A DNA stretch of 64,000 nt from Desulfobotulus alkaliphilus (lineage in GTDB: Bacteria > Desulfobacterota > Desulfobacteria > Desulfobacterales > ASO4-4): NCBI RefSeq assembly GCF_007830435.1, contig NZ_VLLC01000007.1, positions 62,001 to 126,000 on the forward strand, read 5' to 3'. The translations under genes and the position numbers were made by a program. Below the pieces are notes generated by a model. The model saw only the letters and a list, made by a program, of their open reading frames with translations. It had not been told where the DNA came from and did no database searches. Positions 37,927 to 57,266 of the stretch are shown piece after piece; within the stretch, counting starts at the first letter, position 1; every line of letters starts with the position of its first letter.

Positions 37927-38973
37927 TCAGACCCCTTTACTTCTTTTTTTGACGAGCAACTCTGCGGACCGTTTCAGATCCTCGATGTAGTTCTGATCAG
38001 CCTGCTGCTGAACTTCGAGGCGGCGTTTTGCAGCAAAGTGATCATATTGGCTACTGGCATAATCCAGAGCCTGCTGATGTTTCATGTTCCCTGCATTTTC
38101 CAGAGCGGGTAATTCAACATCATTCAAGAACTTATCGAGAAAAAGCTCCCAGTCGGCCATTCGAATGGTCTGGCGACGCTGGGCACGGAATTCAGCCTGA
38201 TCCAGAAACATGACCGTAATACGATTCAGAGTATCTATTTCTTCTTTGTCCAGATAGTTTTTGGCGGTTCCCACATCGGCTTTCAGTACCCGTGAGCCTT
38301 TCCAGCTGGTAAGCCCCATGTTAGGCAATTCAGCATTGGCACGCTTCTTTACAATTTCCGCTGCTGTAAGACCGGTAGCGGCATAGTGCATCTTATTCTG
38401 CATGGTAGCAAAAAAAAGCCGTGTTTGTTTTTCCCCTTCCTGATAGTCACTGGCCAGAGCAAAAATATTTCTGATCATCAGGTAAACCCTTGCTTCGCTG
38501 GAACGGATTTCCCGGATACGAGCCAGAAGCTCATCAAAATAATCTGTAATGCCCGCAGTTCCCTTAAGCCGGTCATCATCCATGGTGAAGCCCTTGACCA
38601 GATATTCACAGATCCGTTCATTTGCCCATTTTCTGAACTGGGCACCTCGTCTGGACCGAACCCGAAAACCAACGGCAAGGATCATCTCCAGATTATAATG
38701 ATCAATCAGGCGCCCTACCTGTCTTGTACCTTCCATTTGAACTATCCGGAATTTCCGGACAGTTGTCTCTGGCAGTAATTCTTCATCATCGAAAATATTC
38801 TGTATATGTTCATTTATAGTACGAACATCTTTTTGAAAAAGCTCCGCAATAAGCTTTTGGCTCAACCAGACGGTCTCACCTTCCAGCCGCACCTGAACCG
38901 GACCGCCTGCCCCCTGCCCCTGATACAGCAATAACTCCCCCTGGGGCCGTTTTTCTTCCTTATTTTCCATCAA
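37927..38973 (-). CDS. rhuM: RhuM-family protein
   Basis: 348 residues matching the 'virulence protein RhuM' family: LLYQGQGAGGPVQVRLEGET, VWLSQKLIAELFQKDVRTI, RKFRIVQMEGTRQVGRLIDH, YNLEMILAVGFRVRSRRGAQ, FRKWANERICEYLVKGFTMD, then a helical C-terminus rich in charged residues. The N-terminal part is a KilA-N/Bro-like DNA-binding-type domain found in phage and mobile islands. Despite its name, no virulence mechanism is established. It is typically carried on mobile DNA. Here a MITE lies just upstream (39027), and its insertion may have modified the promoter. Confidence 0.88.
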   Translation of the reverse strand: MMENKEEKRPQGELLLYQGQGAGGPVQVRLEGETVWLSQKLIAELFQKDVRTINEHIQNIFDDEELLPETTVRKFRIVQMEGTRQVGRLIDHYNLEMILAVGFRVRSRRGAQFRKWANERICEYLVKGFTMDDDRLKGTAGITDYFDELLARIREIRSSEARVYLMIRNIFALASDYQEGEKQTRLFFATMQNKMHYAATGLTAAEIVKKRANAELPNMGLTSWKGSRVLKADVGTAKNYLDKEEIDTLNRITVMFLDQAEFRAQRRQTIRMADWELFLDKFLNDVELPALENAGNMKHQQALDYASSQYDHFAAKRRLEVQQQADQNYIEDLKRSAELLVKKRSKGV

Positions 38974-41817: not shown

Positions 41818-43392
41818 ATGTCCATTCAGCTTGAACTCATCGACTTTGTTAAAAAAAATCTTCCGGATACACCCGATGACCCGGCGGCTTTTGAGGCATC
41901 GAAAGGCCCCTCCTCTCCGGGTTTCGGGCCGGATGTCAGCCGGGCTGTGCATTCCGCCCTGATCCTCAGGCCCGTTTTTGAGCTGGAAACCCGGCGTTTT
42001 GCCCAGGGGGAGGAGGCCTTCAGCGGGGAGATCTGGGGGCAGGTGGATCTGCTGTGGACGGCATTCGCCATTCTGGATGTCATCTCTGAGCTTACCGAAT
42101 ACCAGATCGGCGCCACCCGCAGCGAGGTGGTGCAGAAAATCCTTCCCCTTCTCCGCCAGCAGATGACCCCTGGGAAAAAATCTTTTTCCGATGAGGCCCT
42201 TGGGGAAGTCACCGCAAAAATATTTGATCATCTCACCAACCGGACCCACCGCTACCTGCCCTTTTCCTGCCCCTTTTTTGACGCAGATGCCGGACGCTAC
42301 CGCACCCGCCGTTTCTGGCTCATCAAAAATGTTTATACGGGCGAAGGCAGCGAAGCCCTCTTTGCCCTCACGGAAGAAGGCTACACCGCCTATTTCGGCC
42401 TGCACGAAACCAGTGCCCTGGATGCCGCTGCCATCGGCAACCTGCGCATCAAGCTGCTCATTGAAAGGGGCAATCTGGATGACGCCATAGCCGTGGCTGA
42501 AAGCAACCGCAGGCAGTGCGCCAGAAAAGCCGGAGAAGTGCGAACGGTACGCCGTCAGATCAGCCGGAACATCAAGGCCCTTGCCTTTGACCGAATTCAG
42601 GCTCTGGCCGAAGAGGGGGTCAACCAGGTCATGGATATCCAGAAGGAAGGCAACCGGCTGCACAACCTTGTCATCGAAAACCTGCATGGCAGCGGATACA
42701 GGGGCCACAGCAGCACCCTGTACAGGCTGGCCGATAAGCTTGAGGCCTTAAGCCACCAGCTGATGAAGCTTTCCGGCCAGTTACAGAGCCTGCCCGAAGA
42801 CTACCAGAAGCACAGCCACAAACTTTTCAGAAAAGAGGCCCCAGGGGTATTTCCCGGCATGGATGAGGTCATGGAGAGGATTTTCTCTTTAGATGAGGAA
42901 AACGCCGCCCGCATGGGAAGCGAGTTCATCGCCCGCATGAACCCTCCGGCAAGAAGACCCCTTTTTGATCCGGCATCGGTGATTGAGGCCTGCGACCGCG
43001 CCCTGGAACGGAAAAACCCGCCGGGCGATCAGAATCAGGTCATTTTCGAGGTGGACGGCGAACCCATGCTGCGTTTTCAGCCGGAACTGAATGAAAAGCT
43101 GATGCTTGAGGCCTTTCATCTGATCCACGATCATGTTTACCGCAAAAAAGAAATGAAACTGAGTCAGATTCTGGAACAGGCCCTGACAGAATCCAAAGAA
43201 GGTCTTTTCCCCGTGGCTGCGGCCATGGCCGTATTTCAGTGCCTTGTGGAAAAACGCATTGCAGACAGGTATGGCATCCATGTGGACATGCCCGACCCGC
43301 AAAGCCGCATCACCATGGATCTCGGAAGCGGAAGACGCTACCGGGGCCATGAACTGCGGCTGAGGCAGCGGGTTTCCAATCTCACTGGATGA
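41818..43392 (+). CDS. jetA: Wadjet subunit JetA (kleisin, MksF/MukF-like)
   Basis: 524 residues, soluble and mostly helical. The N-terminal half looks like winged-helix kleisin material (DLLWTAFAILDVISELTEYQ; LFALTEEGYTAYFGL). The middle is a long helical region (NRRQCARKAGEVRTVRRQIS) and the C-terminus is again compact. I assign it by position and size: the first gene of a set with an MksE-like protein, a 1466-aa SMC-like ATPase and, further on, a Toprim protein. In Wadjet, JetA bridges the JetC heads, and the complex extrudes loops and cuts small circular plasmids. AAGGAAG lies somewhat far upstream of the ATG. Confidence 0.78.
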   Translation: MSIQLELIDFVKKNLPDTPDDPAAFEASKGPSSPGFGPDVSRAVHSALILRPVFELETRRFAQGEEAFSGEIWGQVDLLWTAFAILDVISELTEYQIGATRSEVVQKILPLLRQQMTPGKKSFSDEALGEVTAKIFDHLTNRTHRYLPFSCPFFDADAGRYRTRRFWLIKNVYTGEGSEALFALTEEGYTAYFGLHETSALDAAAIGNLRIKLLIERGNLDDAIAVAESNRRQCARKAGEVRTVRRQISRNIKALAFDRIQALAEEGVNQVMDIQKEGNRLHNLVIENLHGSGYRGHSSTLYRLADKLEALSHQLMKLSGQLQSLPEDYQKHSHKLFRKEAPGVFPGMDEVMERIFSLDEENAARMGSEFIARMNPPARRPLFDPASVIEACDRALERKNPPGDQNQVIFEVDGEPMLRFQPELNEKLMLEAFHLIHDHVYRKKEMKLSQILEQALTESKEGLFPVAAAMAVFQCLVEKRIADRYGIHVDMPDPQSRITMDLGSGRRYRGHELRLRQRVSNLTG

Positions 43393-43418
43393 TATCCTTT
43401 ATCTGAAGGAGTTGATTG

Positions 43419-43586
43419 ATGAAAATTGATATGAGTTCCAAAGCCATTACCGAGCGCCTACAAACCGTCAGCCAGTTAAGAAAAGCATGTCTCGCCCTTG
43501 CCAGAACCAGTATCGCTAAAAAAATCATTAAAGAACATGCTTCCAATGAATCCGTTCAGAAAACAGCCCTTGCCCTTGGCCGATAA
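43419..43586 (+). CDS. Small ORF between jetA and jetB
   Basis: A 55-aa frame, ATG 43419 to TAA 43586, with a near-ideal GAAGGAG eight bases before the start. It begins MKIDMSSKAITERLQTVSQL and continues RKACLALARTSIAKKIIKEH. It is basic and predicted helical. It lies 27 bases after jetA and 57 before jetB, so it would be co-transcribed with the defence operon. No known family. It may be an unrelated small gene (for example an orphan antitoxin-like protein) or a missed accessory subunit. Confidence 0.45.
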   Translation: MKIDMSSKAITERLQTVSQLRKACLALARTSIAKKIIKEHASNESVQKTALALGR

Positions 43587-43642
43587 AGCTGTAACGGATT
43601 TACCCTCATCACCAGCCCAGTCAAGTCAGGATCCATTGCATT

Positions 43643-44437
43643 ATGGAAAACCATACGGAATCCCTCCATGCGGCCAGCCGCCTGATTTATTTAAGCCTCA
43701 TCCACAGCAGCGGCAGCCGCAGGGCCATGGCCCCCTTTGCCAGCGAAATGGCCGAACTCCTCCAGCGTTTTCAGTCCCAGGAAAGCTTCCGCCAGATGGT
43801 GGAAACGGGCCTGAAGGCCATGGAACTGCGGCTCCTTGCCCTGGAAGACAAAGGCCTTCGCCTTTCCGCCCGGCGTTCGGACAGTTTTTTTGCCGCCACC
43901 CTCACGGACTACGGAAAGCTCCTTGCCAGAAGTGACCTCAAAGCCGCAGAAATCCTTCCCGTTCACTGCGCCATTGCCACGGCCTTTTTTCCGACGGAGG
44001 CGGATCTGGATGCTCCTGTGGAGGATCTGGGTGCCATTGTCATTGTGGATGTCATGGATATCCTCAAGCGTTTTGCCCTTGCGGAATTGGCCCTGCCCGA
44101 TGGAGAAACAAGGCTGCATCCCCAGGTGAAAAGCGTTGCCGAACGCCTCCGGCTTCTGCCCGAAGACAATCCGGACAGGCAAAGGGCAGGCAGCGGTACG
44201 AGCTGGGTGGAACTGATCACCATCGTACTGGATCACATGGTGGAAACGGGCTATCTGCTGGCCTTTGAAGAAACACCGGGGGAGGTGGAATACAGACCAA
44301 CCCCTGCCTATCAGACCGCCCTTCGGGAAGGTATTGTCTATGCCTTCCATGCCTTCCGGGATATTGTGAAGGCCGCTTCCCTGGAGGAAAAAAACACCGC
44401 CGGAAGTGCGGCCGGGGAAGGAGAATCCCATGTTTAG
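43643..44437 (+). CDS. jetB: Wadjet subunit JetB (KITE protein, MksE/MukE-like)
   Basis: 264 residues, in the size range of MksE/JetB (DUF4194-like). Helical with a predicted winged-helix C-terminal half: LGAIVIVDVMDILKRFALAE, WVELITIVLDHMVETGYLLA, VEYRPTPAYQTALREGIVYA. JetB binds JetA and regulates the ATPase heads. Its last 8 bases overlap the start of jetC (44430), which indicates translational coupling. The ribosome site is weak (AGGA 12 bases away), consistent with coupling to upstream translation. Confidence 0.78.
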   Translation: MENHTESLHAASRLIYLSLIHSSGSRRAMAPFASEMAELLQRFQSQESFRQMVETGLKAMELRLLALEDKGLRLSARRSDSFFAATLTDYGKLLARSDLKAAEILPVHCAIATAFFPTEADLDAPVEDLGAIVIVDVMDILKRFALAELALPDGETRLHPQVKSVAERLRLLPEDNPDRQRAGSGTSWVELITIVLDHMVETGYLLAFEETPGEVEYRPTPAYQTALREGIVYAFHAFRDIVKAASLEEKNTAGSAAGEGESHV

Positions 44438-47400
44438 ACTCAAAAGGTTTTTTGTAAGCGATATCAAGGCAGGGGATAACATTCTGCGCAATGGCTTTGT
44501 GCCCGTGTTCCGGGAGGATGGCGATGCGGACCATGGGGTGCTTTTTGCCGCCAACGGCACCTGCAAAACCACCCTCTTATCCTTTATCCTCAGCGTATTC
44601 AGCCCCTCAAAGCAACGCTTTGTACAGCATCTGCAATCCGGCGGGGATAAAAGCCTGGACCAGTATCTGATTCCCGGCCGTCCTGCCATTGTCATGCTGG
44701 ATCTGGCCATGGTGCTGCAACCCACCCTCTTTGAGGCAAAACCCGTGGATCATCTGGTTCTGGGCCAGCTTCTCTACCGGCACCGCAGCACGCCGGACCG
44801 CATGGACCGCAGCTTTTTTCTGGCCCAGTCCGCTGATTTTTTTGACACCCTCCGCAGCCAGTGGGATGGACTTTTAGATCAGGAAAAGCCCTATCAGGCC
44901 TTAAAGGATTTCATGGCCCCCCTTGTCCAGCAGACCACAAGCCAGAAGGAATGGGAGGAAACCCTGGAAGGGCTTGGGCTTGATCCCTGGCTCATTGACC
45001 GTCAGGTGGATTTTGCCCGCACGGAAGGGGGCATCAAGGATGCCTTCCGTTTTAAATCCGAAGGGGATTTTTTAAGCTTCTTCCTTGGCTGCGTGACGGA
45101 TATGGATGCGGCCAAAGACCTGCGTGAGCGCATGGATCAGGACTTAAGCAAGATGAAGGACCGGCCGAGAAAACGGGCCCAGCTTCAGGCCGTACGGAGC
45201 TTAAAGGAACGCATCGCCGATTTTGACACCTTCGCCGCCCTCTGGCGCAGCGCAGGAAAAGCCATTGAAGCATGGCGGATGCAGCTGGGAGAAGCCAGCC
45301 ACCTTCTCCATGGCGCAGAGGCTTCTTCCCGGACAGAGATGGAAGCCCTTGAAAGGGAGCAGGGGGAAACCGAAGGCTCTTTGAAAACCCTTCAGACCGA
45401 TCTGGAAACCACCCGAAGCAATATCCTTTATCTGGAACATTTCAACCTCTCCTGTGAAATGGAAGAGGGAGAAAAAAGCCTTCAGCATACCATGAAGGAA
45501 AGCGAGGAGCTTAAGGCTGAAAAAAGCGCCCTTCTTGCTGCGGATTTCATGGCCGATATCCGAAAGAATCAGGCCGAAGCAGCCACAAAGGAAAAAGCCC
45601 TCGCCGAAGCAGGCGAAGAAATCACTCCCTTGCAGGAAAAGGTGAAAACCCTTGCGGCCCAGTACCATCTGCGTCTCGGTGCAGACCGCCACGGGCTGAA
45701 AACAATCATGGACAATCTGTGCAGGGAAGAGGAAGAAAGAAGGCAGCATCAGAAGTCTCTGGAAAATAAGCTGCAGACAGAAGAAAGCCTTCAGAAAGCC
45801 CTTGAAAGGGCGCTTGAGGATCTGAACCACAGAATTCGGGGGGCCGAAGCAGGCCTTATCCTGCTGCCCCTTCAGCCCGGAGAAGGACCTTCCGATGCCC
45901 TGAGCCGTCTTCATGGGGAAAAAGCAGCCCTTGAAGACCGCATCTCCATGGTTGAAAAGGAAATGAGGGCCGGGGAAGAAGCCCTGAAGGCCATGGACGG
46001 CAAATGGCGCAGCCTGCTGGAAGCCTCTTCCAAAGCAGAAAGCAAGCGGACCGAAGCCCTCAGGGCCATGGAGGAAGAAGCGGATCTGCGGCGGCGTCTT
46101 CTGGAAGATCCCCATCTTGTGCGCATTTCCGGAACCCTTGATATGGAAGTCAGCTCCGCAGAGCTTCTTTCAAGGCTGGATGCTGCCCTGACACGCAGCG
46201 AGGAGCGTCTCAGAACAAAAGAAAGGCAAACCCTTCAGCTGGAAGAAAAACTGGAAGCCTTAGGGCAGGGAGGGGGCCTTGCCGCCGATGACCTTACCCG
46301 CCGCCTTCTTTCCCATTACCATGAAAAGGGCATTTCACCAGGAGAGCTTAAATCCTATCCCGAATACCTTGCGGATCTCTACCCTTCGCCGGAAACCCTT
46401 GCCAGCTTCATCGAAGGCGATCCGGCCCGGTTCACGGGCATGATGGCGTCCAGTCCGGATATCATTGAACGCATCCTTGAGATGCCGGTGCCTTTCTGGC
46501 TGCACCGGCCCGTGGTGATCTCCACCCCATGCCCTCCCGAGGCGGTCCATGCCGTGGAACAGACCCTGATCCGCCCCCTGACACCCGAGGTCTATTCCAG
46601 GCAGCACATGGAAAAAGTGAGGGATGACTACCAAACAACGCTGGAAAAGATGGTAGGGGAAAGGGAAGAAACCCGGAGCACCCTGAAAGCCATGGAAGGC
46701 GTAAGCCGAAATCTCCACGCCTATCAGGAACGTTTTCCCGATGTCGGAGCTGTGGCGGCCCTGCGTGAACGGGTGGGCAGGGAGGAAAAAAATCTTTCCG
46801 CCATCAGAAATGCCATCGCTGAAACGGAGGCGGGCATGGAAGCCCTCAATGTCTCAAAGGCCGATCTGGAATCCCGATACCGCCATCTGAAAGACCAGCT
46901 TGCAGACCTTTCCCGGATACACCAGCAGGTAAACACCTGGCTCACATCCTTTGCGGATCTCGCAGCATGGCAGGAGGAAAGGGAAAAAAAGATTCTTGAA
47001 AAAAGAACTTTGGAAAAAACCATAAAAGCAGAAGGCAATCTTCTGGAGGAGCTGAAAGAAAAAACCCGCCAAATTCTTATGGATATCCACATATGCAAAA
47101 GTGATCTCAAAAGGCTGGACGAAAAGGCCTCAGAAATAAGTCAGCCCGAGGACAAAAAACTTACGGCTGCCGAGCAGGAAGAAGCCCTGTCCATGGACCT
47201 TCAGACCCTGCATCATCTTCATCATGCGGCAAGGGAAACCCTGAGGCAGATGGGCCATAGCCTTGGCATTGATCTTCTGACGAAAGAATTTGAGGATCTT
47301 CAGGGACGCATAGCAAGGCTTCAGTCCGAATTCGGAGCTTTTGGCCGCAGCCATACCTATGATGAAAAAACAGCAAAAGACTGGGCAGCGCGCAGCTTCA

Positions 47401-48830
47401 GGGAACGGAAGGAAGACCTTGAAATCCTTTCCGGAAAGCTGGAAGCACTGAAAGAGCGTCGCATCCGCATGGAAACGGAACTGGAACACAAAAAAAAGGA
47501 TCAGGCCCGCAGCGAGGCCCTTCTTTCAGAACGCAAAGCCAAAGGCTTTTCTCCGGATCTTGGGGAAGAAGAGCTCAAGGATCAGGATACAGATGCCCTT
47601 TTGTACCAGCTGGAAAGTGAAAAAAGAAAGCGGCAGTCGGACTGCGAAGCCCTTTCTTCCCGCAGTCATCGCCTCAAAGAGAAACTCCGCTATCTTGAAA
47701 AATGGCATCAGGAACTTCGCATTGGCATGGCGGAAAACCAGTCCTTTGAGCCCCTCTGGGATGGAAATTCTCCCCGCCATCCATGGCCGGACCTTTTGGA
47801 ACCGGCCGGAGACAGGATGGCTTCCATCGGAAAGCTGCTGGAAGAGATAAGGGAAATGGCCGCAGCCGAAAGAAAGGATCGTGAGGCCGGAGAAAGCGCC
47901 CGCAGGCGGATGCGGAGCGCCTTTGACCGTCTCCAGACCCACCTTCAGGATGACGCCTGTCGCCATGAACTGCCCGCTGTGGTGGATGCCCTGAGAAGCC
48001 ACGATGCTGAATCCTTAGGCCATCAGGCCGACGACCTGATCCGGCGCTGCGAAGATATCGGCCGTAACATTGAAACGGATCTGGAAATTACCCAGCGCTT
48101 CATGGACAACCTTGTGGATATGCTGCTTCAGTACAGCCGGGATTATCACCAGAAACTGCAGGCCGCAACCAGAGAGCTTCTGCCGGAAACCGTTTTTATT
48201 TACGGCGGAAAACCCATTCTGCGTGCCGGTGTCCGCCTGGATTTTGCCCGTTATCAGGATGCCTTCCGCCAGTCTGTGGAAAACTGGCTCCACCAGCTCA
48301 TGCAGCAGAACCGTCTGCCGGAAGTCAATGCAAAAGCAGGCAACGGCCTTGGCGCTGAACTGCTCTACCAGCTTCTGGGGGCCGCATCCGGCAAAGAGAA
48401 TTTCGGCATCCGCATGCTGAAATGCGATGACTCCGGCAGCACCTACGAGCCCGTGGGAAAGGATCTCGGTTCCGGCGGCGAGGCCCTTACCATCGCCGTC
48501 ATGCTCTATACACTTCTCATCTCCATGCGAAAAAAACGCAGCAGCGCTTCCGAGGGCAGAATTCCCGCCTTTCTCGTTCTGGACAATCCCTTAGGGGTCT
48601 GCAACCGCTCGGACTTTGTGGATGCCCAGCTCAAGGTGGCGGGAAACATGGGGCTTCAGTGCGTCTATTTCACCGGCATCCATGACCGGGAATCCTTAGA
48701 GCTTTTTGAACTGCGTACCGCCATCCGCAAAGGGGATAAAAAACTTGAGATCGACGGCGTTTCCTACAACTGCCTTGAAATCACGGAGCTGAATGTGGAA
48801 AAAACAAAGAAACAGGTGAACAATGGGTGA
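44430..48830 (+). CDS. jetC: Wadjet subunit JetC (SMC/MukB-like ATPase)
   Basis: 1466 residues from ATG 44430 (AAGGAGAATCCC before it). The N-terminal head has a P-loop variant FAANGTCKTTLLSF (residues 39-52). Two very long coiled-coil arms (about 200-660 and 770-1180) flank a compact hinge-like region around 640-760 (EYLADLYPSPETLASFIEGD, FWLHRPVVISTP). The C-terminal head has the signature GSGGEALTIAVMLY and Walker B AFLVLDNPLGV. In the P-loop, Cys45 stands where GxxxxGK(T/S) has Gly. In Walker B, Asp is followed by Asn instead of Glu. Some SMC-like families share the latter, so inactivity should not be assumed. The gene ends with an 8-base overlap with an araC start codon. Confidence 0.85.
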   Translation: MFRLKRFFVSDIKAGDNILRNGFVPVFREDGDADHGVLFAANGTCKTTLLSFILSVFSPSKQRFVQHLQSGGDKSLDQYLIPGRPAIVMLDLAMVLQPTLFEAKPVDHLVLGQLLYRHRSTPDRMDRSFFLAQSADFFDTLRSQWDGLLDQEKPYQALKDFMAPLVQQTTSQKEWEETLEGLGLDPWLIDRQVDFARTEGGIKDAFRFKSEGDFLSFFLGCVTDMDAAKDLRERMDQDLSKMKDRPRKRAQLQAVRSLKERIADFDTFAALWRSAGKAIEAWRMQLGEASHLLHGAEASSRTEMEALEREQGETEGSLKTLQTDLETTRSNILYLEHFNLSCEMEEGEKSLQHTMKESEELKAEKSALLAADFMADIRKNQAEAATKEKALAEAGEEITPLQEKVKTLAAQYHLRLGADRHGLKTIMDNLCREEEERRQHQKSLENKLQTEESLQKALERALEDLNHRIRGAEAGLILLPLQPGEGPSDALSRLHGEKAALEDRISMVEKEMRAGEEALKAMDGKWRSLLEASSKAESKRTEALRAMEEEADLRRRLLEDPHLVRISGTLDMEVSSAELLSRLDAALTRSEERLRTKERQTLQLEEKLEALGQGGGLAADDLTRRLLSHYHEKGISPGELKSYPEYLADLYPSPETLASFIEGDPARFTGMMASSPDIIERILEMPVPFWLHRPVVISTPCPPEAVHAVEQTLIRPLTPEVYSRQHMEKVRDDYQTTLEKMVGEREETRSTLKAMEGVSRNLHAYQERFPDVGAVAALRERVGREEKNLSAIRNAIAETEAGMEALNVSKADLESRYRHLKDQLADLSRIHQQVNTWLTSFADLAAWQEEREKKILEKRTLEKTIKAEGNLLEELKEKTRQILMDIHICKSDLKRLDEKASEISQPEDKKLTAAEQEEALSMDLQTLHHLHHAARETLRQMGHSLGIDLLTKEFEDLQGRIARLQSEFGAFGRSHTYDEKTAKDWAARSFRERKEDLEILSGKLEALKERRIRMETELEHKKKDQARSEALLSERKAKGFSPDLGEEELKDQDTDALLYQLESEKRKRQSDCEALSSRSHRLKEKLRYLEKWHQELRIGMAENQSFEPLWDGNSPRHPWPDLLEPAGDRMASIGKLLEEIREMAAAERKDREAGESARRRMRSAFDRLQTHLQDDACRHELPAVVDALRSHDAESLGHQADDLIRRCEDIGRNIETDLEITQRFMDNLVDMLLQYSRDYHQKLQAATRELLPETVFIYGGKPILRAGVRLDFARYQDAFRQSVENWLHQLMQQNRLPEVNAKAGNGLGAELLYQLLGAASGKENFGIRMLKCDDSGSTYEPVGKDLGSGGEALTIAVMLYTLLISMRKKRSSASEGRIPAFLVLDNPLGVCNRSDFVDAQLKVAGNMGLQCVYFTGIHDRESLELFELRTAIRKGDKKLEIDGVSYNCLEITELNVEKTKKQVNNG

Positions 48831-48945
48831 TGTCATCTGTTCATGGCAGACATGCCTGCCCCAAGGCAAATCCCTTGTCTGGCCCGATGGCTGCAGGGAT
48901 CTGACTGCCATTATTCCGAAAAATCAGCCTCCAGATCGGATCTGA
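48701..48945 (+). repeat. Left copy of a ~240-bp duplication (jetC 3' end + araC 5' end)
   Basis: This segment aligns almost end to end with 54529-54766. Here the jetC part is intact and the araC part is a stub. At 54529 the jetC part is degraded and araC is whole. The araC halves are nearly identical (a clear large majority of bases match by eye). The jetC halves are more diverged. It marks the left border of the 5.6 kb insert. Confidence 0.85.
48823..48945 (+). pseudogene. AraC-family regulator stub (first 40 codons)
   Basis: ATG 48823 opens MGDVICSWQTCLPQGKSLVW, then PDGCRDLTAIIPKN and stops at 48943-48945. The same start (MDDVLCSWKVCLPQGRSLVW) belongs to the complete regulator at 54639. 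The DNA-binding domain is missing, so this is a cut-off copy. It overlaps the jetC stop by 8 bases. Confidence 0.85.
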
Positions 48946-49030
48946 GGGTTGCTTTGAAAGCTTCCTATAAGGTATGCTTAATTCATTTTTTTTGAAAATG
49001 AGAAAAAATGTCCAAAAAGGAGGAAAAACC

Positions 49031-52000
49031 ATGAGTGATTCTAATTCGCACAGAAGTTTTTCTGATCAAGTCATACGGACAGGCTTATTAGTTATCCTTG
49101 CTTTGGTCATGATTGCTTGTGATGGTGGATCATCTTCACCAACTTCAAAAGACAGTGAATCCAAACCAGAAAAAGTAATTCTGCCTTCATTGGTTCAGTA
49201 TTTTCCAGACAGTGGGCCGGCTGGAAGTGCCGTTTACCTTCAATTCAGCGAGTCGCTCATTCAAATATCTTCAAACCTGGAGGCTACATTTAACGAAGAA
49301 CCTGTTGTTATAAAAGGATATACAGAAGATATTGCAGAAATATTCATCCCACCCAACGCCGTGCCAGGCAGCACTGGCATTATTCAAATCCAAACGACAG
49401 ACTCCAAAGCACCACGCATTACTTTCAATGTAACTAAACCCAAAGCCATTCGCATAACCAGCCAAACCATTGAGCCATCCGGTACAGAGCAGGTAATAGG
49501 GTATGAGGACACTCTGAAGCTCACCATACCCGCAGGACTTATTGACCAACCACGCAATCTGACCATTGATGTTATTGATAATGCTCCACCAAGCAGCCTT
49601 AACCCCTTTAACCGGGTAGCAGTAGACATTACCATAGACGGGCTCACTCAGCTTGACAAAACCATTGAAATAGCAATGGCGTATAATACAAATGGACTCA
49701 ATCCGGACTATGGTCCAGGTGAGCAACTTTTTGCCCAGCGCTTTGATAGCGATACTGGCCTATGGGTTGACCTGCCGCTTCAGGTAGATGAAGAAACCCA
49801 AACAGCTTATATTTATACCGATCATCTTAGTTACATTGCCCTTGTCGGCACTGCAGCGGGGTTAATGACTGCATACAGCCCAGCAGCAGTCGCCACCGGA
49901 GTAGGTGTTACTGGTGCAGTCGCAGCCAGTGGCTGGATAGCAGAGAAGATTGCCTACAGTACCTATACGACCCCTCAAGGTAATTTCCGTATCGTGTACC
50001 GCAACTATGCTACACCTGACAGTAGTGATATAGACAACTGGCAAAAGCCTGCGCTTGCTGCTGGACTGACCGGTTACAACAGCAAGTATCCTAAATATGT
50101 ACAGGATGCAGGTGAGCTGCTTGAAGTTGCTTACCAAAATTATATCCATGCTGGATTAAAACGACCAGGCTCAAGAATTCTCGACATTCCACAGGCTACC
50201 ACTGTCAAAATAAGTGGCGTGTGGCAGACAGCTACTGGAGATTTGCTTAAGGATTGGCGTGGCATCGGCGATGGTGACCAACCACAATATGGTAAAATAT
50301 TCCGTGCTGTACATCTTCCTCTATCAATTTTCACTGATGGGTCGATTAATAATAATGATCTCATTATCATCGGACATGAACTCTTTCACCGTTTCCAGGC
50401 CGAATACTACACTATTCGCCGTTTTCTGAGCTGGGAAAATACCGGAGATTACTGGTGGATCGAAGCAACCGCCGAATACGCCGGACATAATGTAGCATGG
50501 GGCAATCTCACCCTTGATGGCCTTGACGCCCTCGTACAGGGCAATTTACTCAGCTATCCCATTGATTCCACCGGCATCAAAGCAGACTGGGGGAGGGACT
50601 ATGAATATGTGAGCGCAACTTTTGTTGACCATCTTGTGCGTAAACAGGGTGTGGACTTTGGAGAACTGATTGAGTTTGTAGCCCGGGGAGAACCTAAAGC
50701 ACAGCTTAACCAGTTTGCCGCATCCAGCCAAACTGGTGGCAGCCTCGGTTGGTGGTATCATCAGTTTGCCCGTGATACTGCCCTTACCAATATGTACCTC
50801 AGCTCTTTTCCACCAGCTAACTTTAATTTGCCACCATCAGCGAGTGCTGAGTACCTTTATAATTTTCAGGTTGCAGAGGCCAATGACATCCTGCACCTTC
50901 CAGAAGAAGCTTTTATGGAAATAGCAGTCGATGGTGATCCGTCTATAGTCGATATTGTTGTGATTCCTGATGGAAAAGAGTTTGCTGAAGCCGACTTTAC
51001 CACATTTCTTTCTGGCCGTCCCCCCCAACAGTGGCAATTACAGACGTGGCAAATCAACAGCCTAAACCCCGGAGACACCATTTATATACTGGCAACCAAT
51101 GATGGATTCTATGGTGAAGAGCACTATGTTAACGCCAGTATAATGGTGGATCATCAGAAAAGCACTGAAGAGGGTAGCGAAACCCTGGTCAGTCATCAGT
51201 TTTATCTTCCCGGCAAATATTCAGCTAAACTCTGGGCCGTTCAAATTGGTCAGGCAACACTCAGTATTGACCCGGATACTTTAAATGAAGCCTTACCGGA
51301 TGAAGAGTACGCATTTTACCTAAACATTGAAGACATACCAAAAAACACAAATAAAATCGAAATATTATGGAGTTTTACCGGCGCTGACGGCGAGATCAGC
51401 CAAGATCAGGCGAGTGTTCCTGTCAGTGAAAACGGCACGGCTACATACACCATCAGGCACACTTTCAAAGAAGTAGCTGAAGAAGGGTTAAGTTTGCTTG
51501 TAACAGTACAGGATAAAGAGACAGCCAGCGAACTCGCCCGGGTAACCGTCCCCATAATGTTTCCTTTTAAAGTAACCATAACCGGCCCCCGCATACTCGT
51601 ATGGGAACTTACCGGTGGAGCCAGCGAAGTTACCCAGAATTTTGAAGCGATGGCCGTTCCTGAAGCTTATTATGAATACAGATGGATTTTTGGAGACGGT
51701 AATACTCAAATAGACAAACCCCTGCCAGGAGAACGCTCAAGTGTCAGTCATACTTATGCAAATCTTAGTGCAGGCGACAAATTGTACCCTCGCATAGAGC
51801 TTTGGGATTTGACGGGTAAAAAACTCGCAGAAGATACTGTCTCCATACATGTAGAGCAAAAAAAGGAATCAGACCATGATATGGAAAGAATTGAACTCTT
51901 GCAGAGTATAGACTGCGGCTGGGATGTGGATTACTCGATACTGGAATATGCTGGCGATGATCGTGGAGAGGGGGGTTTTTGGTATAGAGTTCCATATCTT

Positions 52001-52363
52001 TATACTGTACAGCATGGAGTACATATTCGACTGAGAGACTACCAGTCTTCGCCGTTTGAAATTGTACAGACTTGCTGGCACGTACATCCAGATATTGAAA
52101 ATGCCAATGTGGATCATGGCAATTATTATGGTTCGCTCAAGCATGGCGTATCCAGAATCTGGTTAAGTGACGGAACTCAAACCGCGGAAATTCTCTATAG
52201 AGAAAACAAACACCTATACGTGCTTGATCAAAGGGACCTTGAATCAAATCAACCATGGTGCGCAATAACAGACTATGTTGATAATAACTTTACCCGGCAC
52301 GAGGGTAGCTGCCCATGGGTGGTCCCCTCTCCATATCCGGGCTATATTGAATCCAGCGAGTAA
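49031..52363 (+). CDS. Large lipoprotein with IPT-, ZU5-, metallopeptidase- and PKD-like regions
   Basis: 1110 residues from ATG 49031 (AAGGAGG upstream). A signal peptide ends in a lipobox (LALVMIAC, Cys about 32). It is followed by a Ser-rich linker, an IPT/TIG-like sandwich (VQYFPDSGPAGSAVYLQF), a ZU5-like region (YEDTLKLTIPAGLID), then a zinc-peptidase-like domain: IIGHELFHRFQAEYY with HExxH (about 448-452) and a downstream WWIEATAEYAG that could give the third ligand. Two PKD-like domains follow (ILWSFTGADGE; YRWIFGDGNTQ), and a cysteine-containing C-terminal domain (about 945-1110) unlike anything I know. Probably an outer-membrane or surface lipoprotein. Distinctly AT-rich codons, consistent with acquisition. 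Confidence 0.72.
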   Translation: MSDSNSHRSFSDQVIRTGLLVILALVMIACDGGSSSPTSKDSESKPEKVILPSLVQYFPDSGPAGSAVYLQFSESLIQISSNLEATFNEEPVVIKGYTEDIAEIFIPPNAVPGSTGIIQIQTTDSKAPRITFNVTKPKAIRITSQTIEPSGTEQVIGYEDTLKLTIPAGLIDQPRNLTIDVIDNAPPSSLNPFNRVAVDITIDGLTQLDKTIEIAMAYNTNGLNPDYGPGEQLFAQRFDSDTGLWVDLPLQVDEETQTAYIYTDHLSYIALVGTAAGLMTAYSPAAVATGVGVTGAVAASGWIAEKIAYSTYTTPQGNFRIVYRNYATPDSSDIDNWQKPALAAGLTGYNSKYPKYVQDAGELLEVAYQNYIHAGLKRPGSRILDIPQATTVKISGVWQTATGDLLKDWRGIGDGDQPQYGKIFRAVHLPLSIFTDGSINNNDLIIIGHELFHRFQAEYYTIRRFLSWENTGDYWWIEATAEYAGHNVAWGNLTLDGLDALVQGNLLSYPIDSTGIKADWGRDYEYVSATFVDHLVRKQGVDFGELIEFVARGEPKAQLNQFAASSQTGGSLGWWYHQFARDTALTNMYLSSFPPANFNLPPSASAEYLYNFQVAEANDILHLPEEAFMEIAVDGDPSIVDIVVIPDGKEFAEADFTTFLSGRPPQQWQLQTWQINSLNPGDTIYILATNDGFYGEEHYVNASIMVDHQKSTEEGSETLVSHQFYLPGKYSAKLWAVQIGQATLSIDPDTLNEALPDEEYAFYLNIEDIPKNTNKIEILWSFTGADGEISQDQASVPVSENGTATYTIRHTFKEVAEEGLSLLVTVQDKETASELARVTVPIMFPFKVTITGPRILVWELTGGASEVTQNFEAMAVPEAYYEYRWIFGDGNTQIDKPLPGERSSVSHTYANLSAGDKLYPRIELWDLTGKKLAEDTVSIHVEQKKESDHDMERIELLQSIDCGWDVDYSILEYAGDDRGEGGFWYRVPYLYTVQHGVHIRLRDYQSSPFEIVQTCWHVHPDIENANVDHGNYYGSLKHGVSRIWLSDGTQTAEILYRENKHLYVLDQRDLESNQPWCAITDYVDNNFTRHEGSCPWVVPSPYPGYIESSE

Positions 52364-52760
52364 TGGGATTTTGATTTCAGCCTTTTGCTTGGCAACAGTT
52401 ATGCCACAACCTTAATTTATTTACTTTTCAAAGACTTATAGTTTAGGCAAAATAAAAATCTGAAGGACAGTACAGATTACCTGCCCCTGCAACACAGGAC
52501 TGTAAAGCCTGTTGCGGGGGCAGGCCTTTGGTCTCAGTTCCGGGAAGGCCACAGCTACTAATAAAATCGAAACGCACTCGACAGAATATCTTCTCTTTCA
52601 GGCTTAATGAAAATGATCAGGTATTTTTATCTACGTCGAATGGCAAATGATCTTTTTAGTACGTAACACCTCCCCTCGGAATACCGAACCAGACGAACGT
52701 TAATCCCATGCGTACCAAATCAAAAAACAGCTTTTGCCTCACCCCCAAAAGGTGCAAAAT
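52364..52760. other. 397-bp intergenic region inside the insert, with a long hairpin
   Basis: No credible gene. The main structure is an imperfect 15-base stem at 52480-52524 (listed separately). The rest is AT-rich. Confidence 0.45.
52480..52524 (+). other. Strong hairpin between the two cargo genes
   Basis: CCTGCCCCTGCAACA (52480-52494) pairs with TGTTGCGGGGGCAGG (52510-52524), 15 pairs with one G-T, around a 15-base loop. No T run follows (CCTTTGG), so it is not a standard terminator. It could be a weak terminator, an mRNA-stabilising stem or a recombination-associated structure. Confidence 0.55.
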
Positions 52761-54512
52761 ATGAAAAAAAGAATCCTCTACGGCGAAGCCAATTATGCGG
52801 CCATTGTTCGTGAAAACGGATACTTTGTGGATAAAACCGCCTACATCGAAAAACTGGAATCCGTCAAAAATACCGTATTTCTGCGTCCAAGGCGTTTTGG
52901 AAAATCCCTGCTCTGCACCATGCTGGAGTCCTACTATTCGGTTTTATACAAAGATAACTTTGAAGAGCTTTTCGGCCACACATGGATAGGCAAAAACCCA
53001 ACGCCCCTGCACAATACCCTGCTTGTGCTGCATCTGGATTTTTCCACCATTGAGACGGGTGAGCTGGAAGTGATGGAAAAAAGTTTCAACCATACTGTTA
53101 ACTTAAAACTTAAAAGCCTCATACGAAACTGCCATGCATGGCTTAAAAACAGCCCGCCATTTGACCCAGAGGCAAGTGCCACAGCCAATCTTCAAAGCCT
53201 GTTGGATCATTTTTCACCCGACTGGCCCCATCCCCTCTATGTCATCATTGATGAGTACGACAATTTTGCCAACCAGCTCATCACAGGTCATAAAGACCTT
53301 CTTTATAAGCAGCTCATGGCCGATGACGGTTTTTTAAAAACCTTTTTCAAGCTTTTAAAAGAGGGCAGAAAAACCGGAGCCATCCACAATGTTTTCATCA
53401 CTGGCGTTCTGCCCGTTACCATGGATGAACTGGCTTCGGGCTTCAACATTGCCACCTTCATCACCCTGAACCCCAAGTTTGAAAACATGATCGGCTTCAC
53501 CCAGTCTGAAGTGGATTTACTTCTCGATGACATTTACAAAGACTATGACATCCGCCCGGATACCCGCAATGAGGTCCAGGATGTCATTAAAAATCAGTAC
53601 AATGGCTATCATTTTATCAACCCGGAAGGTGAGGCCGTTTATAATTCCACCATTCTCCAGTATTTTCTGAGCTGGCTCTGTGAATTTAAAACCATGCCCA
53701 AACACTTGACGGACATGAACCTCAAAACGGATATCCTGTGGATCAAAAGAATCACCGGCTCCAACCCTGAGCTTACAGAAGATTTTGTCACCCGGCTGAC
53801 AACCGAAAACAGCATTGACTATGACGACACCCTGCTCACCCAGAAATTCAACATGTCCCAATTTTTTGAAAAGGGTTTTTTCCCCATCTCCTTTTTTTAT
53901 CTGGGCATGCTCACCCGGAAAAACGATTTTTCCCTCACTCTCCCCAACCTCAACATGAGAAGAATCTTTGTGGAATACTTCAATGAGCTGCACCGCATTG
54001 ACGTTTCCACCGGCTACGGGGACATGATGCAGCATTTTGTTAAAACCCTTGACCTGAAAGCCCTGTTTGCGGGCTACTGGCAGGAATACGTTTCCCAGCT
54101 TCCCGAAGCCGTTTTCACCAAGGTAAATGAGAACTTCTACCGCACCACCTTTTATGAGCTGTGTTCCCGCTATCTTTCCCGCTGGTTCACCTGGAATGTG
54201 GAACGCTCCTACCCCAAAGGCAGGACGGATCTGGAGTTTGTGGGCAAATTCAATGAATGTTTTGCGGGCATTCGCATGGTCATCGAGTTCAAATACTTTT
54301 CCAATGCCGCCTTTAAAAAATTCAATACCAGCATTGAAAACTTCACCCTGATTCCTGAAGATACGGAACAGATGGCAGGCTATGTGGAAGGGCTTCAAAA
54401 GGAATACCCGGAGGCAAGGGTCAGCCAGCATGTGATTTACTGTTTCGGCAATGGGGGATTCAGGGTGTTTGATACGGCCCCCCTTCCGGCATCAAATGAA
54501 CCTAAAAGCTGA
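52761..54512 (+). CDS. AAA-ATPase-like / PD-(D/E)XK nuclease-like protein (DUF1703 type)
   Basis: 583 residues from ATG 52761. The N-terminal AAA-ATPase-like domain begins YGEANYAAIVRENGYFVDKT, with the family P-loop FLRPRRFGKSLLCTML and a Walker B-like YVIIDEYDNFANQL. The C-terminal part holds a PD-(D/E)XK-like core (KGRTDLEFVGKF..RMVIEFKYFSN; E-x-K in VIEFKY). These proteins are frequent in anaerobes, often in many copies, and are suspected defence or mobile-DNA proteins, but their activity is unproven. Length matches the family. It is second in the insert, 249 bases past the hairpin 3' arm at 52512 and probably with its own promoter. Confidence 0.85.
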   Translation: MKKRILYGEANYAAIVRENGYFVDKTAYIEKLESVKNTVFLRPRRFGKSLLCTMLESYYSVLYKDNFEELFGHTWIGKNPTPLHNTLLVLHLDFSTIETGELEVMEKSFNHTVNLKLKSLIRNCHAWLKNSPPFDPEASATANLQSLLDHFSPDWPHPLYVIIDEYDNFANQLITGHKDLLYKQLMADDGFLKTFFKLLKEGRKTGAIHNVFITGVLPVTMDELASGFNIATFITLNPKFENMIGFTQSEVDLLLDDIYKDYDIRPDTRNEVQDVIKNQYNGYHFINPEGEAVYNSTILQYFLSWLCEFKTMPKHLTDMNLKTDILWIKRITGSNPELTEDFVTRLTTENSIDYDDTLLTQKFNMSQFFEKGFFPISFFYLGMLTRKNDFSLTLPNLNMRRIFVEYFNELHRIDVSTGYGDMMQHFVKTLDLKALFAGYWQEYVSQLPEAVFTKVNENFYRTTFYELCSRYLSRWFTWNVERSYPKGRTDLEFVGKFNECFAGIRMVIEFKYFSNAAFKKFNTSIENFTLIPEDTEQMAGYVEGLQKEYPEARVSQHVIYCFGNGGFRVFDTAPLPASNEPKS

Positions 54513-54528
54513 ACCCTCATCAGGCATG

Positions 54529-54766
54529 GCTTTTAAACGGCGCACTGGAGACAAAAAACCTTAAGATCAACGACTCTTCCTGAAACTGCCTTGAAATCAC
54601 GGAGCTGCATGTGGAAAAAATGAAAAGACAGGTGAGCCATGGATGATGTTCTCTGTTCGTGGAAGGTGTGCCTTCCCCAAGGCAGATCCCTTGTCTGGCC
54701 CGATGGCTGCAGGGATCTGATTGCCATTATTCCGAAAAATAAGGCTCCAGAGCTTATCTGCAGCGG
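54529..54766 (+). repeat. Right copy of the ~240-bp duplication (degraded jetC tail + araC head)
   Basis: 54529-54645 aligns with the last ~120 bases of jetC (for example CTGCCTTGAAATCACGGAGC is identical), but with small gaps and an in-frame stop, so it no longer codes. 54639-54766 is the start of the intact araC gene. See 48701-48945. Confidence 0.85.
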
Positions 54767-55352
54767 ACTGGATGCCTCTCCGAGAATTGTGACCTGCCCG
54801 GAAGAAACCTGTTTTGTGGGCATCCGCCTTGCACCGGGCCTCACCTTTCCATGGGAAAAGGATGCCCCCGGCTCAAAGTGCAGGGATCAGTCCATCTCCC
54901 CATACCTGCCAGATCCGCACAGCTGCGGTTTTGAAGCCGATCCCGATGCCATAGGGCGTGTGCTTCTGCAGATGGTTTCGCTGGCAAACCCTGCCCCCCG
55001 CTGGATTGCAGACTACCTGACGGAACTGGGGACAGAGGGAAAAAAAAGGGCCACGGCATTCAGTCCGCGAAGCATCAGGAGGCAGATGGTTCAGTTCACG
55101 GGGGCATCGCCCAGCTACTGGAAGGGTCTGGCCCGGGCCCGGAAGGCGGGATATGCCATCGCTTCCTCCGATATCCCCCTGGCCCATATTGCCGCTGACC
55201 ACGGTTTTTCAGATCAGGCCCATCTGAACAGGGAAATCAGACGCTGGTTCGGCTGCACTCCCAACATGCTTCGTGTGAACGGGGAGCTGTCCGCAGCCCG
55301 GCTGACAGCTCCCGATGCATTCCCCCATCCTCAGTCAAGAATATACTGCTGA
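54639..55352 (+). CDS. AraC-family transcriptional regulator
   Basis: 237 residues. The N-terminal ~110 residues are a DUF6597-like cupin-type domain (SLVWPDGCRDLIAIIPKN, FVGIRLAPGLTFPW). The C-terminal part is the AraC double helix-turn-helix (FSPRSIRRQMVQFTGASPSY, GYAIASSDIPLAHIAADHGF, SDQAHLNREIRRWFGCTPNM). It is likely to control the neighbouring VOC gene (convergent, overlapping by 22 bases) or its own operon. In an uninterrupted locus its start overlapped the jetC stop, so it may once have been co-translated with, and perhaps regulated, the defence operon. Confidence 0.88.
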   Translation: MDDVLCSWKVCLPQGRSLVWPDGCRDLIAIIPKNKAPELICSGLDASPRIVTCPEETCFVGIRLAPGLTFPWEKDAPGSKCRDQSISPYLPDPHSCGFEADPDAIGRVLLQMVSLANPAPRWIADYLTELGTEGKKRATAFSPRSIRRQMVQFTGASPSYWKGLARARKAGYAIASSDIPLAHIAADHGFSDQAHLNREIRRWFGCTPNMLRVNGELSAARLTAPDAFPHPQSRIYC

Positions 55353-55732
55353 AACTCCGCTGCCGGGGGAATGGGGTGGTAGCAGTAAACAAGGGCACCG
55401 GAGGGATCCAGAAGCCCAAAGCCCCTGTCTCCCCATGGATGATCTTCCAGAGGCATGATGACAGGCAGCCCCGCCTGATCATGAAGACGCTCGTACATGG
55501 CATCCGCATCCCTCACAAGGATATTGAGAAAAATTCCTCCGGTAAAAGGCACCATGCCTTCCTGGGGCTCCATAAGACAGATTTCCGGCCCCGATGGGGA
55601 AGCTCCAAGGCGAAGTACCACGTACCAGCCGCAGTCAAAGGCCGGACGGGCATCAAAGTGCGAGAGATAAAATGCCTTTGTTTCTTTAAGCTTCTGCGTG
55701 ACAAGGGTTGTGCTGACGGATTGAATTTCCAT
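55331..55732 (-). CDS. VOC (glyoxalase/bleomycin-resistance) superfamily protein
   Basis: 133 residues, ATG 55732 directly after GGAGGAAGAT. The two-fold beta-alpha-beta-beta-beta layout is visible: STTLVTQKLKETKAFYLSHF, CGWYVVLRLGASPSGPEICL, then GGIFLNILVRDADAMYERLH and HPWGDRGFGLLDPSGALVYC. Single-domain members act as dimeric metalloenzymes or small-molecule binders. AraC-VOC pairs are common. Substrate unknown. The gene lies between araC and jetD in opposite orientation. Confidence 0.88.
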   Translation of the reverse strand: MEIQSVSTTLVTQKLKETKAFYLSHFDARPAFDCGWYVVLRLGASPSGPEICLMEPQEGMVPFTGGIFLNILVRDADAMYERLHDQAGLPVIMPLEDHPWGDRGFGLLDPSGALVYCYHPIPPAAEFQQYILD

Positions 55733-55863
55733 ATCTTCCTCCAGGGTTTCCTGTTTTCATAAAATGAAACTCTGGCGGGCAGCATAGCGCAATATCTGTG
55801 GCAAAATCTTGAATTTTTCGGCCAAAAGTTCGTGGTAATCAGAAAATATAAAGGAGGCTATCC

Positions 55864-56934
55864 ATGGGAGACATCCTGCAGGAAGCTGTTCTGAAAGAGA
55901 TACAATCCAGCAAGGTTAAACGCATAAAGACCCGTCCTCTCCTTGACGTCATCAAAAAAGAGTCCCTTAGCCCCATAGGAGATTTTGATCTTCCCAAGCG
56001 CCTTTTAGAAATTCTGCAGGCCCTTGAAAAAGAAAAACGGCTGCAAATGCCCAAAGGGAAGAAAGCCTTTGATAAGATAAGCAAACTCCCCGACTATATC
56101 ACCGCCTTAAAGCCGGAAGAGGATGCGGCCATGGAACAAAAAAAGAGCAATCTTTACAATTTACGTAACCTGACCGCCTGGGAACCCAGACACATGATCG
56201 CCTTTGCCCCTCGTCTGAAAAAAGAAACAGAACTGGAGCTGGCAAAAAAGATCAACCATTATCTGTTGAACCGAAAATCCGATGCAAAAAAAATCCCCCA
56301 CAGGGAGCGGGCTTTGCAGATTTTTGGAGATGAAAAGGCCTTGGATGGCCACACCCGCAAAGGACTTTTTGGTGGCAGAATCACCCTTGAAGATCTGGAC
56401 TGCTTTTACTGCCCGGAGCCCCTTCCCTTCCAGAGCCCTTCACCGGACAAGGCCCTTCTTTCTGGCAAACCCCTTCTCGTTGTGGAGAACGCCAACACCT
56501 ACTGGAGCTGCTGTCAGGCCAATGGCACCCTCAGCACCTTTGCCGCCGTGGTGTACGGTAAAGGCTTCAGGATAGCTGTAAACGAATCCGCCAATGACGG
56601 GCTGGAGCAGATCAGAGCAGATCTTAAAGCCTCAGAAATTCTCTATTTTGGCGACCTTGATCCCACAGGCATCGCCATTCCCGTGGGTATCAATGCCACG
56701 AGGGAAAAAAACAACCTTCCCCCGCTTCGGCCTGCCCTTTCCCTTTACAAGGCCCTCCTTGAAAAAAACCTCACTACAGCCTATGACGGCTCCCAGAGCA
56801 AACATCACAATCCCATGGATGCAAGGCAATGGCTGGGGGATGAACTGGCAGGCATTTATCTTGAAAAGACAGAGAACCTTCGATGGCCCCAGGAGGGTCT
56901 GACCGCCGAAGATATCCACAAAGCCCTGACTTAA
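55864..56934 (+). CDS. jetD: Wadjet nuclease subunit JetD (Toprim, DUF3322/DUF2220-like)
   Basis: 356 residues; AAAGGAGG precedes ATG 55864. An N-terminal helical/winged-helix arm is followed by a topoisomerase VI A-like Toprim domain: catalytic Glu in PLLVVENANTYWSCC (around 205) and the DxD in LYFGDLDPTGIAIPVG (around 265), then a C-terminal helical part (NPMDARQWLGDELAGIYLEK). JetD is the DNA-cleaving subunit that cuts plasmids after loop extrusion by JetABC. It lies 7 kb from jetC because of the insert, plus araC and the opposing VOC gene, so it probably uses its own promoter. The residues needed for metal binding appear intact. Confidence 0.85.
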   Translation: MGDILQEAVLKEIQSSKVKRIKTRPLLDVIKKESLSPIGDFDLPKRLLEILQALEKEKRLQMPKGKKAFDKISKLPDYITALKPEEDAAMEQKKSNLYNLRNLTAWEPRHMIAFAPRLKKETELELAKKINHYLLNRKSDAKKIPHRERALQIFGDEKALDGHTRKGLFGGRITLEDLDCFYCPEPLPFQSPSPDKALLSGKPLLVVENANTYWSCCQANGTLSTFAAVVYGKGFRIAVNESANDGLEQIRADLKASEILYFGDLDPTGIAIPVGINATREKNNLPPLRPALSLYKALLEKNLTTAYDGSQSKHHNPMDARQWLGDELAGIYLEKTENLRWPQEGLTAEDIHKALT

Positions 56935-57266
56935 AAGGCAATCTGATTACCTCCATTCGTTTAACAAAAATATAAGGCCATAGCGTTTAAGCATCAAGAC
57001 GTTTTTCGGGTGTCTTTGAATAAAAACATCCGTTTTCAGATAAAAAACCAAGAGAACCGCTTCATACGCCAGAGGATCTACCCTGAAAACCACTGGCATG
57101 ACAGGCAGATTACAAAACAGCGTTCACTGCCAGTCAGGCCCCTGCCAGAAACCCTTTGCCTTTTTTCATCAGACACAGGATATTGTCCCTGCAGATCATG
57201 GATAACTGCCCGATCCACAGGCGGTTTCATCTCCTGACAAAAAAACAGACGGAAAGGGATACTTTT
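56935..57266. other. 332-bp intergenic region, no gene seen
   Basis: No protein-like frame with a ribosome site and no terminator hairpin after jetD. It should contain the promoter for the hydrogenase-like chemoreceptor. Confidence 0.35.

Follow-up and report, generated by a model that had tools for sequence, protein, structure and literature searches.

A type III-like Wadjet locus of Desulfobotulus alkaliphilus with an old, recurrent cargo slot between its sensor and nuclease genes

Wadjet systems are presented in published descriptions as four-gene operons (PMC10586767, PMC10123090, PMC12287153), in which JetABC is given as a loop-extruding sensor and JetD as the nuclease, all four subunits being needed for plasmid suppression in B. 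subtilis (PMC10586767). The system described here, from Desulfobotulus alkaliphilus (GCF_007830435.1, NZ_VLLC01000007.1, positions 62,001-126,000, forward), holds such a gene set in divided form. Within the analysed stretch of 64,000 nucleotides (nt), termed the window (and its genome G000), the jetC stop lies 7033 nt from the jetD start with four genes in between, and the set therefore does not make up an operon of four adjacent genes. Comparison across related genomes shows that the jetC-jetD interval is a recurrent cargo slot, old and reused in two families. Its cargo, several genes of which resemble defence or toxin genes, includes Fic, HipAB, DUF1703 and KGGVGR-ATPase genes. We consider it likely that this is a type III-like Wadjet system whose slot was entered by junction-duplicating insertion and whose JetABC and JetD still form one system.

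The divided locus and its duplicated junction

The first-pass annotation of the window had read a direct duplication at the borders of an insert that parts jetABC from jetD, and alignment bears this out. The core of the repeat (48738-48944 and 54554-54760) runs over 207 nt at 85% identity with no gaps, its wider extent being recognisable at 48701-48945 and 54529-54766, and a search of the window genome with 48501-49045 returned these two places only. As had been claimed, each copy keeps one gene whole: copy 1 retains the jetC stop at 48830, with the araC start codon at 48823 overlapping the jetC end, while copy 2 has a TGA in the jetC frame followed by the whole araC of 237 amino acids (aa). 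A Shine-Dalgarno-like stretch, AGGTGA, lies in the jetC tail just before the araC start. The araC parts are indeed more alike than the jetC parts, with 106 of 122 positions identical from the start codon onwards as against 88 identities, 21 mismatches (of 109 aligned) and 17 gap columns, which corresponds to a divergence of 13% and 19%, respectively. Such recurrence of a gene end was infrequent in a control set of 219 open frames of at least 250 codons (window plus 16 loci, both strands, some of them not real genes): the 3' end was found again downstream at E<=1e-6 in four, namely jetC and three DUF1703 genes with nearby paralogues. The features of the locus are as follows.

41818-43392, forward: jetA, kleisin-type subunit, type III (PADLOC JetA3, E 3.5e-31)
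43643-44437, forward: jetB, putative KITE-type subunit, from position and homologues in the loci of relatives
44406-48830, forward: jetC, SMC-type ATPase, DUF3584-like (PADLOC JetC3, E 4.7e-69)
48701-48945, forward: repeat copy 1, by alignment; the jetC 3' end is intact and runs into an araC 5' end cut short at 40 codons
48974-52363, forward: insert gene 1, lipoprotein-like open reading frame (ORF), 1129 aa (HELFH by eye; sub-threshold PKD match; no Pfam family above cut-off)
52734-54512, forward: insert gene 2, DUF1703-type, 592 aa, with both domains that define the family, AAA-ATPase_like (Pfam 4.6e-50) and PDDEXK_9 (2.5e-16)
54529-54766, forward: repeat copy 2, by alignment; the araC 5' end is intact and stands behind a jetC tail that has decayed (in-frame TGA)
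54639-55352, forward: araC-family regulator (PF12833, E 2.4e-15; 81% identical in G001 and G002, the two relatives introduced below)
55331-55732, reverse: VOC/glyoxalase-family protein, convergent with araC (PF00903, E 6.4e-9)
55733-55863, no strand: divergent VOC/jetD intergenic region, 131 nt, with the ribosome-binding-like sequence AAAGGAGG belonging to jetD
55864-56934, forward: jetD, Toprim nuclease subunit, type III (PADLOC JetD3, E 9e-59; Pfam JetD_C above cut-off)

The profile search that had been proposed for the four Jet proteins succeeded for three of them: JetA, JetC and JetD match the type III models of PADLOC, and the JetD motifs YFGDLDP and VEN..TYWSCC are kept in all eight aligned sequences. 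JetB found no PADLOC model even at E<=5 and no Pfam family, and its homologue in locus L024 was likewise without a PADLOC model at that threshold. Its predicted structure is of low confidence (predicted local distance difference test score 69); the best Foldseek rows were MukE (E 0.02), with PA14 JetB at rank 10 and every row at E of at least 0.02, and VIA-align of the model gave Z 6.2 for MukE and 6.1 for PA14 JetB, single winged-helix proteins scoring no lower. JetB homologues at 52-70% are nevertheless placed between jetA and jetC outside the genus, and the proposed identity of JetB rests on this position and these homologues.

Purifying selection acts on all four jet genes, which are intact and constrained after the split. 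By the Nei-Gojobori method, the ratios of nonsynonymous to synonymous substitution (dN/dS) between the window genome and G001 are 0.16 for jetA, 0.14 for jetB, 0.21 for jetC and 0.33 for jetD, alongside 0.14 for the VOC gene, 0.39 for araC, 0.21 for the DUF1703 gene and 0.12 for an upstream acyltransferase; between G001 and G002 they are 0.19-0.25 for the jet genes and 0.87 for araC. As a separate observation on JetC, its residues 1390-1398 (window 48573-48599) read LDNPLG at the Walker B position, and D-N-P-L-G shows no variation in two JetC alignments (5 of 5 and 9 of 9 sequences); the Walker B motif of SMC-type proteins usually reads DE.

The jetC-jetD interval in relatives

Two further genomes of the genus, G001 and G002, were found among 58 genomes. 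In G001 (L015) the order is jetABC, DUF1703 gene, SoFic-like Fic gene, a jetC-tail remnant of 70 nt, araC, VOC and jetD, with 4783 nt from the jetC stop to the jetD start. One contig of G002 carries jetABC, followed by what is left of a deleted DUF1703 gene, by the beginning of the G001-type Fic gene and by transposase-type ORFs (DDE_3; winged-helix/HTH_Tnp_1; IS630-like by eye), and another carries the remainder of the Fic gene, the jetC-tail remnant, araC, VOC, a second Fic gene and jetD. The DUF1703 gene is 90% identical to that of the window at DNA level in G001, where it holds the same position, and 94% in the G002 remnant. Hence the separation, the DUF1703 gene or its remnant and the jetC-tail remnant are common to all three genomes of the genus, whereas the araC fragment behind jetC is seen in the window genome only. 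The araC 5' ends of the two copies, identical at 106 of 122 positions, resemble in their divergence the 105 of 122 between window and G001, and the duplication is thus about as old as the species split. The expectation of the first-pass annotation, that relatives separated in the same way without duplication would speak against it, applies in part, as both relatives are separated likewise and retain the 70-nt jetC-tail part without the araC fragment.

In an order-wide search this JetC was matched at E<=1e-20 in 29 of 389 genomes. Named genomes, when scanned, yielded 12 loci that by title all belong to Desulfobacterales (Desulfosarcina, Desulfoluna, Desulfatitalea and others), a phylum-wide search of evenly drawn genomes returned the own genome only (1 of 395), and in a plasmid collection nine records held distant JetC matches, none of which covers 80% of the query. 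Among the 29 genomes, jetC and jetD lie within about 50 nt of each other in 10 (G643, G061, G715, G600, G649, G700, G733, G722, G667 and G706, the jetD of the last being in two frames); at the level of loci they overlap or nearly so in L024, L031, L034 and L032 and are 33-43 nt apart in L025. This abutting or overlapping arrangement we take as the probable older state. Genes separate the two in nine genomes (G000, G001, G002, G707, G710, G680, G739, G738 and G668), belonging to genera of two families; five of the six in genus g82 of family f35 are assembled on 1 to 6 contigs, the sixth being G668, whose jetC is broken. A gap of ~0.4-0.6 kb with no ORF of 90 aa before jetD occurs in G119, the pair is adjacent and decayed in G085, and 165 nt part the two in the distant G729. 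Type III JetD was not found in the remaining seven (G534, G556, G572, G588, G121, G048, G771), of which G771 and G121 are fragmented drafts with contigs ending near jetC and G588 is 87% complete. The order jetC-araC-VOC-jetD, which the first-pass annotation had rebuilt as ancestral, is most likely the one just before the insertion, but is itself derived, given the 10 genomes in which jetC and jetD abut or overlap. Its option of a recombinational hotspot proved right, and the slot recurs in a second family.

From jetB to jetC the spacing is -29 to 55 nt in all 24 distinct loci having both genes, of 28 examined. From jetA to jetB it is 32-704 nt, with a gene inside the gap in G002 and transposase-region traces in G001, no systematic gene search having been made in the other gaps. 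The G002 gene is a nucleotidyltransferase with an AbiEii-type match, and AriA/AriB (PARIS)-like genes stand directly upstream of jetA in that genome (L016 308-2277 and 3997-4461).

A second, independent insert that duplicates the jetC tail was found in g82. The slot holds SixA and NUDIX genes in G739 and G738, and hipB- and hipA-like genes in G680 and G668. In G707 and G710 it holds a KGGVGR-motif ATPase with a 151-aa partner, then hipB-like, SixA and NUDIX genes, with a hipA-like gene also in G710; the KGGVGR pair corresponds to the PADLOC candidate PDC-M28, the match of the partner being weak (E 0.004). In four g82 genomes the NUDIX stop codon shares its last base with the jetD start. The 38 nt ending at the jetC stop of G707 and G710 are repeated at the distal border of the KGGVGR insert (89%, E 1e-9), and beyond this copy lie the palindromes and the hipB-like gene found immediately behind jetC in G771 and G668; these two empty sites align to G707 over 133 nt (83%) and 193 nt (76%). 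The layout is that of the window, where copy 1 keeps jetC whole and copy 2 bears the old downstream junction, and in both the window and G707 the insert has direct repeats at its two borders.

Origin of the repeats

The sequence of events that we propose would start from a jetC and jetD abutting or overlapping. An AraC-VOC pair would have been inserted between them, araC overlapping the jetC stop, and subsequently, before the three genomes of the genus diverged, a DUF1703 nuclease gene would have parted jetC from araC and duplicated their junction. Later additions would be lineage-specific: the lipoprotein-like ORF in the window genome and, in the relatives, the Fic genes together with an insertion that bears a transposase. 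Since jetC and araC overlap and the ribosome-binding-like sequence of araC lies in the jetC tail, an insertion that spares both genes must duplicate the junction, and we infer that junction-duplicating products survive since both genes stay whole. For these inserts, such insertion-coupled duplication is preferred over an attachment site or an earlier tandem duplication.

Several observations weigh against this interpretation. The jetC-tail copy is found in only two of the six g82 genomes tested (G707 and G710), which are 98% identical in this stretch and hence represent one event, and the G680 insert stands at the same place without such a copy. A single duplication event in the genus ancestor is likewise inferred, because the araC fragment after jetC is present solely in the window genome, and in G002 jetABC and jetD are on different contigs. 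Repeats (E<=1e-6) flank 7 of 25 DUF1703 blocks as against 6 of 79 control ORFs, which is not clearly above background; the blocks were taken from G000, G001 and G002 and the controls from G000 only, and five blocks with too short flanks were dropped. Three of the seven positive blocks are satellite or paralogue arrays (L077, L082, L091), leaving L015 (the jetC case), L070, L085 and L092, and the window's own block is negative in this test, copy 1 lying more than 3 kb upstream. Lastly, JetD evolves fastest of the subunits (71% identity, compared with 84-92%) and, together with the araC dN/dS between G001 and G002, this makes a relaxed coupling possible.

That the jetC-araC junction was first duplicated in tandem, and that unrelated genes were inserted between the copies later, explains the whole jetC and the whole araC equally well, needs no property of the insert and agrees with copies approximately as diverged as the species. 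As it demands that two rare events coincide at one site, and that they do so a second time in the lineage of G707 and G710, we regard it as a possible but distinctly weaker explanation.

Somewhat more doubtful is that the jetC 3' end serves as an attachment site, at which small integrative elements that bring along their own jetC tail would integrate, making jetC whole again and leaving attL/attR-like repeats, their integrases having been lost. The use of the same gene end in two families, the empty sites in G771 and G668, and a jetC whole at one border with the original downstream junction at the other are all in its favour. However, no integrase, recombinase or transposase was recognised among the ORFs of the window and G707 inserts, the repeat lengths differ (207 and 38 nt), and the G680 insert has no jetC-tail copy. 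No tRNA or tmRNA gene as integration target was found in the window or in the 8 loci scanned.

Transposon-like ends were sought as well. At the borders of the window insert there is no inverted pair of at least 30 nt. Near-exact inverted matches within 60 nt of a border, as a measure of terminal inverted repeats, do not exceed 9 nt in the window, G707 and G710 inserts, and 61-72 of 100 shuffles attain this length as well. For the DUF1703 gene itself, transposon ends were rejected: similarity to its close paralogues stops near the ORF ends (52750-54474), and short terminal inverted repeats are lacking.

Recent cargo capture in the window genome alone, the other option of the first-pass annotation, is highly improbable and is rejected for the separation by G001 and G002, which share it along with the DUF1703 gene or remnant and the jetC-tail remnant, and by repeat copies already well diverged, although the lipoprotein-like ORF, found in its own genome only (1 of 58 searched), may be a recent arrival and the G+C of the insert in 1-kb windows (0.43-0.47) is below that of jetABC (0.52-0.57; far flanks 0.47-0.53).

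Repeats around similar modules were also observed elsewhere. Of seven KGGVGR loci outside the slot, six have no flanking repeat and one does: in G061 (L193 3362-3417 and 6714-6769) a KGGVGR-type ATPase and a small partner lie between 56-nt direct repeats (93%) at the 5' region of the gene that comes next. A pair of DUF1703 genes in the window genome is enclosed by 118-nt direct repeats of 96% identity (L070 10024-10141 and 15529-15646), the right copy being inside an intact Dynamin_N ORF and the left an orphan fragment. DUF1703 genes further form tandem arrays, interleaved with a second AAA gene in G002 (L091 5845-17447) and separated by repeats spaced ~44 nt in two window-genome contigs (L073, L075). 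A convergent AraC-VOC pair is present in G083 (AraC 38%, VOC 57% identical), which is outside the genomes with JetC matches. Near the locus, the window holds at 37927-38973 a RhuM-family gene (Pfam 9e-103) that also matches the PADLOC candidate PDC-S05 and lies 2.8 kb upstream of jetA, and at 57156-59273 one ORF that fuses ferredoxin and iron-hydrogenase large-subunit domains with a methyl-accepting chemotaxis signalling domain.

Function and relation to known systems

The separated JetABC and JetD probably still work together as a plasmid nuclease that senses size and shape. They are now probably expressed separately, as proposed from the ribosome-binding-like sequence that jetD has of its own and from the 131-nt divergent region before it; a promoter scan gave no site in this region, promoter and terminator scans being near chance level overall.

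A different role for the slot would be effector exchange, whereby cargo nucleases or toxins serve as alternative effectors driven by the JetABC sensor. PD-(D/E)XK genes follow jetC co-directionally in G001 (DUF1703) and G121, where a gene of the PDDEXK_3 family (PD-(D/E)XK superfamily; L018 2275-2658) lies 83 nt behind jetC and type III JetD was not found in that draft. Moreover, of the six g94 genomes in which this JetC was matched, four keep jetABC, with an open JetC of 1457-1467 aa, but gave no match to type III JetD; by coordinates, three of them are the Desulfoluna records L027, L028 and L035, and the fourth is L033. Yet these genomes show no obvious effector after jetC, G121 is a fragmented draft, and in the complete chromosome of Desulfoluna limicola (L035) the sole JetD_C match belongs to a separate, adjacent type I Wadjet (L106), complete by the JetA1, B1, C1 and D1 models, which thus has its own JetD. 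We find such exchange very improbable. Little credence is likewise given to the broader proposal of the jetC-jetD junction as a dedicated exchange site, where modules would land by junction-duplicating insertion that spares the sensor gene and some (DUF1703, PDDEXK_3, Fic, HipA) would be recruited as JetABC-triggered effectors beside or instead of JetD.

With JetABC and JetD read as one divided system, annotation that demands adjacency would miss or mis-call Wadjet systems, because jetC and jetD are separated in 9 of the 29 genomes and type III JetD was not found in 7 more. The empty and filled sites, sometimes with duplicated borders, form a natural series on the entry of genes into a defence locus without a recognisable recombinase and with the genes spared, and the natural JetABC sets without their JetD offer a way to ask what the motor does alone.

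Integrative elements that insert at gene 3' ends carry, at their far border, a direct repeat of the end of the target gene. The inserts of the window and of G707 and G710 resemble them in having such a target-end repeat, and differ in that no integrase was found and the repeat lengths vary. prrC and rloC genes are embedded in type I restriction-modification loci. BREX too has loci with embedded nucleases (PMC12839542). The present locus shares with both the extra nuclease or toxin genes within a defence locus; unlike BREX and prrC/rloC loci, the host here is Wadjet, the genes lie between the motor and the nuclease gene, and the borders can be duplicated. The DUF1703 gene is like its family (AAA-ATPase_like PF09820 plus PDDEXK_9 PF08011) in having both domains and many copies in some genomes, with 18 PF09820 matches in G000, 1 in G001 and 19 in G002, partial ones included, and many copies are also reported for Cardinium cCpun (PMC6387759); what sets the window gene apart is its place in a Wadjet locus between duplicated borders. 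Among the papers listed by searches of the PMC library, no title or abstract opening concerns a type III Wadjet in divided form or cargo genes between jetC and jetD. The closest relative is Wadjet type III (JetABCD/MksBEFG class), which the locus matches in the JetA3, JetC3 and JetD3 profiles, the four-gene set and the Toprim motifs of JetD, and from which it departs in the distance and the four genes between jetC and jetD; in the variant found here, an old, recurrent cargo slot parts the sensor and nuclease genes of a type III-like Wadjet.

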